Positions 2,505-4,199 of a DNA stretch of 64,000 nt are shown one piece after another. The notes under the pieces are model-generated. The model was given only the letters and a program-made list of their open reading frames with translations. It searched no databases and was not told the DNA's origin. A program made the position numbers and the translations under genes. Source of the stretch: Thermoplasmatales archaeon E-plasma. Its GTDB lineage: Archaea > Thermoplasmatota > Thermoplasmata > Thermoplasmatales > Thermoplasmataceae. The DNA lies in NCBI GenBank assembly GCA_000496135.1, contig KI542674.1, positions 248,001-312,000 of the forward strand, written 5' to 3'. Within the stretch, counting starts at the first letter, position 1; every line of letters starts with the position of its first letter.

Positions 2505-2670
2505 CTTTTTTGGTAAGGTTACCTGTTTTTCTTTTTAACAGTTACCATATATAACATCTCTTTTAGTCCATACGAAATTGAACATGCAAACCATTCAGAT
2601 CAAAAGATATAATAATGGTGTATGTTATTGTATATCATTGCGTTGATCATTTGATCAGCGTAAAAGGTGA
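2505..2670 (+). promoter_or_regulatory. Promoter/operator region of the actin gene with two palindromic elements
   Basis: The 229-base space before the actin gene carries an imperfect inverted repeat at 2512-2546 (GGTAAGGTTACC, then AACAGTTACC) that directly abuts a TATA-like box, CCATATATAACAT, at 2545-2556. About 85 bases further on lies a second near-perfect 20-base palindrome at 2641-2660, built of two TGATCA units two bases apart and flanked by CG. The SD AAAGGTGA follows at about 2663-2670. The arrangement looks like an operator or protein-loading site; which protein binds is unknown. Confidence 0.5.
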
Positions 2671-2676
2671 AATGTG

Positions 2677-3663
2677 ATGGTATCAGAAATTATAGGAATT
2701 GACCTTGGTTATGGAGATACGAAAGTTGTAAGCAACAATAATGAAAAAATAAAATTCCCTTCAAGATGGTCCCCGTATATGGTTGAGCAGTGGGGTATTG
2801 GAGGTTCTATGACAGTTTTGAGGATCAATGGAGGAGAATCGTTCATTTTTGGTGAGGATGCTGCTGGTTCTAATATAAGAGAGCCACTCGGCGATGGAAG
2901 ATTGGCACATGATGATTCGTTACCGCTCATTGGCGCAGCCATTTGGCTGGCAGGAGTGGGAAGAAACGGTGAACCTGTTGATCTGGTAATTGGAAGTGGA
3001 ACCCCGCTGGGAAGATTTAATCAGGAACTTCTGGCGTCAAAGGAATATCTTGAGGGAAAGACCTTAAAATTAGAGTCTTCGTCTGGCGAAATCAGAAATG
3101 TCACAATAAAGAGAATGATAATGAGACCACAGGGTGTTGGGGCTGCCCTATATCTGCTTTCAAAAGGAATGATTGAAAAACAACCTGGATTTGGTGTGGT
3201 GGTAGATATTGGATCAAGAACTACTGATGTTTTGACTGTTAACCTTAAGAATATGGAACCTGTTGTGGACCTCTGTTTCAGTATCGAGAGTGGTATTGGA
3301 GATGCAGTTTCACAATTAGGGAGACTTATTGCCAAAGAAACCGGTTTCGTTATACCAACGGATATTGCCAGAGAAGCATTGTCCCGGGTTGTAACGTTTA
3401 AACAGAAGAGATTTGGGGGACCACAGGTTGCTGAACCTATACTTAACCAGTTGACTTCTAAGGTCCTTGATAGTTTGAGAGCAAATTTAAGAGCTGATCT
3501 AGACAGGCTCGTTGCCATTATACCTGTGGGAGGAGGAGCATCACTCATAGGTGATAAACTCGAAGAACTGGCTCCCGGTTTTCTCATCAAGATACCAGAT
3601 GAGGATGTGCAATACGCCAACTGTCTTGGGTACAAGGATGCAGCACAAAGATCGGAGAGTTAA
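2677..3663 (+). CDS. Archaeal actin-like ATPase, Ta0583/ParM-related
   Basis: Protein of about 328 residues with the actin/Hsp70 ATPase signatures: phosphate-1 loop GIDLGYGDTKVV near the N-terminus, phosphate-2 loop VVDIGSRTTDVLTV near residues 185-198, and an adenosine motif VGGGASLIG in the last quarter. Length and motifs agree with Ta0583 of Thermoplasma acidophilum, a filament-forming actin homologue whose structure resembles plasmid ParM. A GTG at 2674 is possible, but the ATG at 2677 lies 6 bases after the SD AAAGGTGA and is preferred. A coiled-coil protein gene follows after 8 bases and is probably co-transcribed. Likely a cytoplasmic filament protein; partition or shape roles are inferred. 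Confidence 0.9.
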   Translation: MVSEIIGIDLGYGDTKVVSNNNEKIKFPSRWSPYMVEQWGIGGSMTVLRINGGESFIFGEDAAGSNIREPLGDGRLAHDDSLPLIGAAIWLAGVGRNGEPVDLVIGSGTPLGRFNQELLASKEYLEGKTLKLESSSGEIRNVTIKRMIMRPQGVGAALYLLSKGMIEKQPGFGVVVDIGSRTTDVLTVNLKNMEPVVDLCFSIESGIGDAVSQLGRLIAKETGFVIPTDIAREALSRVVTFKQKRFGGPQVAEPILNQLTSKVLDSLRANLRADLDRLVAIIPVGGGASLIGDKLEELAPGFLIKIPDEDVQYANCLGYKDAAQRSES

Positions 3664-3671
3664 ACAGGAAA

Positions 3672-4199
3672 GTGATAAGATTGAACCAAGTAGAGGATCC
3701 TGATAAATCCTCTTCAAATTTTAAATTTAAGGGAAAACTTCGCAACCTTATAGATACCATTAAAGAACCAGATCAATCAGATGAAGAATTTCTTGAAAAA
3801 AGCGTTTTAGATGCTCTGGAATATAAGGAAAGCAAGAAATATTTAGAAGATATGATTCAAAAAGTTGAAAAATTACTTCTTGAAGTTAAGGACAAAGAGG
3901 AATTTATTAATATTAAACGGCAGGAAATAAAAGAGGAAAGAGAAAAACTTGAATCTCAATTGAGAGCTGCAACTCCTCATGCAAATCCCTCAATGCCATC
4001 AAGAGATCAGAGAAGATTCCGTGAGGAAGCCCACAGGATTCACTGGAACACGGAAAGGCAGATTAAAAGAAAGATTATCAACACTGAAATGGATGAATTG
4101 CTGACACACCTTGAAAGCAGGTGGGCTGAGCTGGATAAGCTGGAGCTTGGCAGGTTAAAGGAACTTATGGAAAAGAACCGTAAAAATGAGAAAAAGTGA
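3672..4199 (+). CDS. Coiled-coil protein encoded with the actin homologue
   Basis: Highly charged protein of about 172-175 residues, not assignable to a named family by eye. Residues about 15-50 (short strand NFKFKG, helix KLRNLIDTIK, then SDEEFLEKSVLDALEY) resemble a ribbon-helix-helix pattern. Residues about 55-100 form a heptad-rich coiled coil, followed by a Pro/Ser linker and a second basic helical segment. The start could be GTG 3672 or TTG 3681; the weak SD-like GTGAT favours the latter. It follows the actin gene by 8 bases, so a role as filament adaptor or regulator is a reasonable but unproven inference. Confidence 0.7.
   Translation: MIRLNQVEDPDKSSSNFKFKGKLRNLIDTIKEPDQSDEEFLEKSVLDALEYKESKKYLEDMIQKVEKLLLEVKDKEEFINIKRQEIKEEREKLESQLRAATPHANPSMPSRDQRRFREEAHRIHWNTERQIKRKIINTEMDELLTHLESRWAELDKLELGRLKELMEKNRKNEKK

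Follow-up and report, generated by a model that had tools for sequence, protein, structure and literature searches.

A Ta0583-family actin gene and its conserved neighbour: a probable ParM/ParR-like two-gene module on archaeal chromosomes

Results

The actin gene and its downstream partner

The window, i.e. the whole 64,000-nucleotide stretch of DNA analysed here, comes from a Thermoplasmata genome of 1.66 Mb, where it is part of a 556-kb contig, and carries an actin-like gene directly followed by a small gene for an adaptor-like protein (Table 1). The actin ORF comprises 329 codons, its product is matched by Pfam ALP_N and MreB-like_C, and a search of PDB sequences aligns it with Ta0583 (PDB 2fsj) at an E value of 1e-128 over 322 residues. 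The ATP-site motifs DLGYGDTK, DIGSRTTD and GGG are conserved in the family alignment, and by its sequence the protein is a member of the Ta0583 family. Its dN/dS of about 0.01 within the genus indicates strong constraint. It is also a ParM-type actin ATPase according to two further models, the partition-type ParM family phrog_691 (E 2e-37, PHROGs) and the pSK41-type ParM model NF010498 of NCBIfam, the latter with an E value of 1e-8, a match that falls far short of the equivalog cut-off.

The downstream ORF is a real gene, because its dN/dS against same-genus relatives is only 0.10-0.15. Searches of Pfam, NCBIfam, PHROGs and the PDB sequences with its product returned nothing acceptable. The AF2 model contains helices at residues 15-30, 37-100 and 110-174, in keeping with a protein that begins with a short unit and continues as long helices. 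An earlier sequence-only reading of this DNA, which had described a Ta0583-type actin ATPase and, after 8 bases, a charged protein, is therefore borne out as far as the two genes are concerned.

Table 1. Positions of the genes and elements at the actin locus (numbered from the first letter of the window)
Feature	Position	Strand	Remark
Palindrome GGTAAGGTTACC, near the TATA box of the sequence-only reading	2512..2523	.	not conserved; probably not functional
TATA-like element AAAAGATATAATAA, probable promoter	2602..2615	+	best kept in 4/4 genus members (alignment); promoter role inferred
Hairpin/dyad GCGTTGATCATTTGATCAGCGT (TGATCA element)	2640..2661	+	directly 5' of the Shine-Dalgarno sequence; pairing kept in 4 species
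Shine-Dalgarno sequence AGGTGA	2665..2670	+	read from the sequence; retained in most relatives
Ta0583-family (ParM-like) actin ATPase	2674..3663	+	328-329 aa; ATG at 2677 favoured as start by the alignment of relatives
Adaptor-like partner protein	3672..4199	+	175 aa; 8 bases downstream of the actin gene
Partner N-terminal RHH-like region, residues ~15-60	3714..3851	+	N-F-K-F-K possible strand, helix A, helix B; basis is homology to relatives
Partner long helices 37-100 and 110-174, coiled-coil-like (predicted)	3780..4193	+	AF2 model, mean pLDDT 82
Motif LLTHLESRWA (LxxxLExxW), candidate actin-binding element	4098..4127	+	conservation in 22 family members

A partner family beside the actins

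Within the family, the actin is present in 37 of 77 genomes, representing 11 of the 19 genera, and the other 8 genera are without it; none was detected in other families among 400 genomes of the class. The actin genes of three genomes are fragmented or contain internal stops, which reflects either gene loss in parts of the family or poor assemblies.

A small gene lies approximately 7-84 bases 3' of the actin in 9 of the 11 actin-bearing genera. The pair is thus kept well beyond the window's genus, which strengthens this part of the sequence-only reading. Ta0583 itself is included: in genome G057, whose encoded actin is identical to the crystallised protein, the partner, a protein of 102 aa, starts 7 bases behind the actin gene (L174:5246-5554). 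In the remaining two genera, of the Acidiplasma/Ferroplasma type, the actin is kept and the profile search found no recognisable partner.

The partners, of 102 to 237 aa, are dissimilar at first sight, yet their two ends can be aligned. Across 22 aligned partners, E50, E148 and W151 do not vary, and at least 90% keep L143 and L147, so that the family-invariant residues sit mainly in a C-terminal motif, LxxxLExxW. With a whole-protein HMM built without its genus, the window partner scores 24.2 bits, whereas the highest of 2000 shuffled sequences reaches 9.0. When the 77 genomes were searched with the profile, partners were found only beside actin genes, except for one match at a contig end; two marginal matches (E 0.002 and 0.007) were left uncounted. 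Genome G033 encodes two actins, with a separate partner copy behind each. The second of these pairs, in the genome of the uncultured archaeon A1, is diverged (L173, G033:C1:479800-483500; positions 1004-1996 and 2018-2383), and its partner retains the motif as LKKKLERKW.

We assembled this family in the present analysis. Its members consist of an N-terminal RHH-like (ribbon-helix-helix) part, a variable linker and the C-terminal LxxxLExxW motif. A literature search, which covered papers other than the two primary reports on Ta0583 and may therefore have passed over an earlier notice, found no paper naming an adaptor beside Ta0583; as far as can be told, the family has been undescribed so far.

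The DNA upstream of the actin gene

The sequence-only reading had pointed out two palindromic elements upstream of the pair, and these fared differently in the comparison with relatives. The first, said to abut the TATA box (2512-2523 / 2546-2555), has no counterpart in three relatives from the same genus and is probably not functional; the TATA-like element that is kept best is a different one, at 2602-2615. The second, composed of TGATCA units, recurs in each of the four genus members as a hairpin or dyad with arms that change together, and it behaves more like an RNA hairpin. In the four species, 34 of 36 cells are paired (94%) and three pairs are changed on both sides, whereas slid controls reached at most 31%; the shuffle control for covariation was only moderately passed (32 of 500). 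Of the cells without a Watson-Crick pair, 6 are G-U and 2 unpaired; an RNA hairpin therefore fits better than a DNA operator, a comparison of four sequences that cannot by itself decide. The element is the most stable predicted upstream fold among 48 large ORFs in the window and ends a few bases 5' of the Shine-Dalgarno sequence. Its role is probably to adjust expression, not to act as a centromere. Rfam returned nothing, and neither palindrome has an exact copy elsewhere in the genome.

The leader 5' of the hairpin (2584-2643) shows unusually high conservation across the genus, and a short peptide, MQTIQIKRYNN..., could be encoded there; a short leader ORF at this place was dropped from consideration, as its end is inconsistent between relatives.

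In two other genera, a different element is shared: a conserved CAATTG-containing block around TTGACAATTG..GTAAGCTTRGRACAG lies right behind the ATTTAAATG box, on its 3' side and about 110-160 bases 5' of the actin gene, at nine of the loci compared. It may be an operator of the partner.

These elements bear on the view that the partner makes no contact with the actin and is an RHH repressor by which the actin operon regulates itself. RHH proteins are often autoregulators, and both the promoter-proximal dyad of the window genus and the CAATTG block just 3' of the TATA box in the two other genera would suit such a role. However, the most conserved part of the partner is the C-terminal LxxxLExxW rather than the DNA-facing strand, and the dyad varies between genera and shows G-U wobbles. 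We therefore regard a pure repressor as quite improbable.

Repeats of the parC type were sought by a scan for iterons upstream of 16 operons. No iteron array was found; 15 operons were blank and one was marginal for one 8-mer, the scan detecting six copies well and four poorly, with low power below five copies. Because the same scan was also blank on four bacterial ParM loci (three plasmid, one MAG), divergent sites may still exist in the archaeal operons.

The fold of the partner N-terminus

The proposal that the first part of the partner is an RHH domain gains support from the homologous relatives, although the window protein itself yields no match. The N-terminal profile of the relatives aligns with RHH_1 proteins over the full strand-helix-helix length (hhalign probability 74%) at a score of 25.5; among 100 column-shuffled controls the highest score was 19.9. 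The comparison set consisted of proteins from related archaea, with the textbook sequences of CopG, NikR and Arc added as seeds. Only this profile-profile comparison rose above its control; an RHH sequence HMM run against single partner sequences did not exceed shuffles.

The structural comparison points the same way. No match with E <1 was obtained by Foldseek against the PDB for the partner models. A second look at the Foldseek list with VIA, for the AF2 model of a relative, gave MatP (Z 4.7, rmsd 2.0 over 55), MazE-mt1 (4.6), TacA2 (3.8) and NikR (3.4), with VapB also among the matches. We take all five to be RHH proteins, and most of the listed rows represent this one fold, at modest Z values of up to 4.7. 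The N-terminus of the relatives is thus probably RHH, as far as profiles and models can indicate. The RHH-like pattern is retained in the eight genera besides that of the window, and one residue of the putative strand carries an acidic side chain in some genera (locus L044).

For the diverged partner in the window, no RHH match was found in Pfam, among PDB sequences, in the fold comparison or by hhalign (0.8%), and VIA returned only long-helix matches for its model. On the other hand, its alignment with helices A and B of the relatives reaches 74.7% in hhalign, and its residues 16-20 (N-F-K-F-K) alternate as an RHH strand would. An RHH domain in this protein is therefore suggested through its homologous relatives. 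The arrangement read by eye, an RHH domain and then a coiled coil, is partly reproduced by the AF2 monomer, with its short N-terminal unit and long helices, but residues 16-20 are drawn as helix, giving a helix-loop-helix without a strand. The ribbon of RHH proteins arises only in the dimer.

The same data can be read in favour of a partner that, like arcadin-2, regulates the actin, as a nucleator, a capper or a depolymeriser. In this reading, an RHH-derived dimerisation domain has lost DNA binding, and the filament would help to shape the wall-less cell or act at its membrane. The partner of the window genus, mostly long helices and devoid of a recognisable RHH signal, fits this explanation, as do the acidic strand residues, the concentration of invariant residues in the C-terminal motif and the failure to find a conserved DNA site. 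Nevertheless, the RHH-like pattern persists in all the other eight genera, and the closest bacterial relatives of the actin are plasmid partition ParMs. A regulator of this kind seems unlikely to us, albeit a contender to be taken seriously.

Genomic setting

The locus lies on a chromosome rather than a plasmid, as judged from the 556-kb contig of the window and from five single-contig genomes of 1.6-2.2 Mb that carry the actin. Two genomes have a cdc6 gene 38 and 54 kb from the actin, but in others the distance is hundreds of kb; as this proximity is inconsistent, we do not claim a linkage to the origin. A pattern in which the actin replaces ParA is not seen either, ParA-like genes occurring with or without it.

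The actin-adaptor gene order and the resemblance of the actin to plasmid ParM might suggest that a complete ParMRC locus, with parC on its upstream side, was taken up recently from a plasmid or a virus. The distribution argues against this. The actin occurs once, either on a large contig of the chromosome or on a complete chromosome, and is confined to one family yet spread over 11 genera. Viral contigs of IMG/VR contain no match to it, and the plasmid matches are only distant bacterial ParMs of <30% identity. Together with the iteron scan, these observations make a recent acquisition highly improbable.

Discussion

The pair is best read as a ParM/ParR-like two-gene module on archaeal chromosomes and not as ParMRC in the strict sense. 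We do not file it as ParMRC because both a plasmid location and an iteron parC were looked for and neither was found. The ParMRC-like layout recognised by the sequence-only reading is accordingly strengthened in one part, a chromosomal actin with an RHH-like adaptor, while its parC part fails.

We consider it moderately probable that the actin and the adaptor act together in the manner of ParM and ParR. Ta0583 actin forms nucleotide-driven filaments, and the window actin would do the same. The partner would dimerise through its N-terminal RHH-like domain, which may hold DNA, and its C-terminal LxxxLExxW helix would dock on the actin. The filaments could then shift a DNA site or hold it in place, and the simplest such site would be one on the chromosome. 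Such a module is not an essential segregation system, since the actin stands without a recognisable partner in two genera and is absent from 8 of 19.

A bolder extension of this module, which we put forward tentatively and would rate at below an even chance, is a native archaeal machine for actin-driven chromosome segregation or nucleoid anchoring. In it, Ta0583 would supply the filament, and the LxxxLExxW proteins the overlooked adaptor family, of an inherited pair of genes. The resemblance of the conserved partner to the DNA-gripping adaptors of bacterial plasmid partition suggests that, in the thermoacidophilic, wall-less cells of the Thermoplasma type, DNA may be moved or held in place by actin filaments. 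These wall-less hosts figure in ideas on early eukaryotes, and T. acidophilum is culturable.

Comparison with known systems

The structure of Ta0583 (Thermoplasma acidophilum; PDB 2fsj/2fsk/2fsn) was solved twenty years ago, and the protein has been described as ParM-like and known as a lone actin. It belongs to the same family as the window actin and occupies the same place before a partner gene. A dedicated partner turns its likeness to ParM by structure into a testable mechanism.

Crenactin with its arcadins and salactin likewise form archaeal actin filaments, but they belong to different actin families, and no RHH partner was found for them in the portions of the literature consulted, in which salactin is suspected of a part in DNA partitioning (PMC10746226). 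MatP, an RHH and coiled-coil organiser of chromosomes, is the top structural match of the RHH and helix region of a relative (Z 4.7); it has no actin partner, and as the arrangement alone is shared, we do not claim homology.

The type II plasmid partition systems of pSK41 and R1 combine an actin-like ATPase with a following adaptor made of an N-terminal RHH domain and a C-terminal filament-binding part, and the archaeal pair, with its RHH-like N-terminus and candidate actin-binding motif, is laid out in a similar way. The archaeal pair differs from them in being chromosomal, in that no iteron parC was found, and in its separate adaptor sequence family with LxxxLExxW. In pSK41 ParR, the first 52 residues are enough for parC binding and the C-terminus is thought to recruit ParM (PMC4911067). 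We propose the same division for the archaeal partner, with a DNA-binding N-terminus and an actin-recruiting C-terminus.

Distant ParM-like actins of Campylobacterota are followed by small RHH-like proteins ending in GW (L062:4001-5265 and L125:1504-2659). The adaptor-like proteins beside distant ParMs in a Campylobacteraceae MAG and in Nitrosophilus have a C-terminal Trp (VGW and YGW, respectively), which recalls the W motif of the archaeal family and may be taken as a weak hint.

The closest parallel in setting is found in bacteria. Chromosomal ParM-ParR pairs (cParMR) have been published for Desulfitobacterium and Clostridium (PMC12270681), and they share with the archaeal locus the layout of a chromosomal actin and an adjacent adaptor, predicted to be RHH in the bacteria and probably so in the relatives of the window protein. 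The expectation that a chromosomal archaeal version would be new is tempered by these pairs and by the earlier description of Ta0583 as ParM-like: the kind is not new, because bacterial chromosomal ParM-ParR is already known, and the archaeal variant is. In contrast to the bacterial pairs, the archaeal pair has an adaptor that is absent from the libraries and is kept across nine genera of one family, and it would represent an archaeal branch of these recently described chromosomal ParM-ParR systems.
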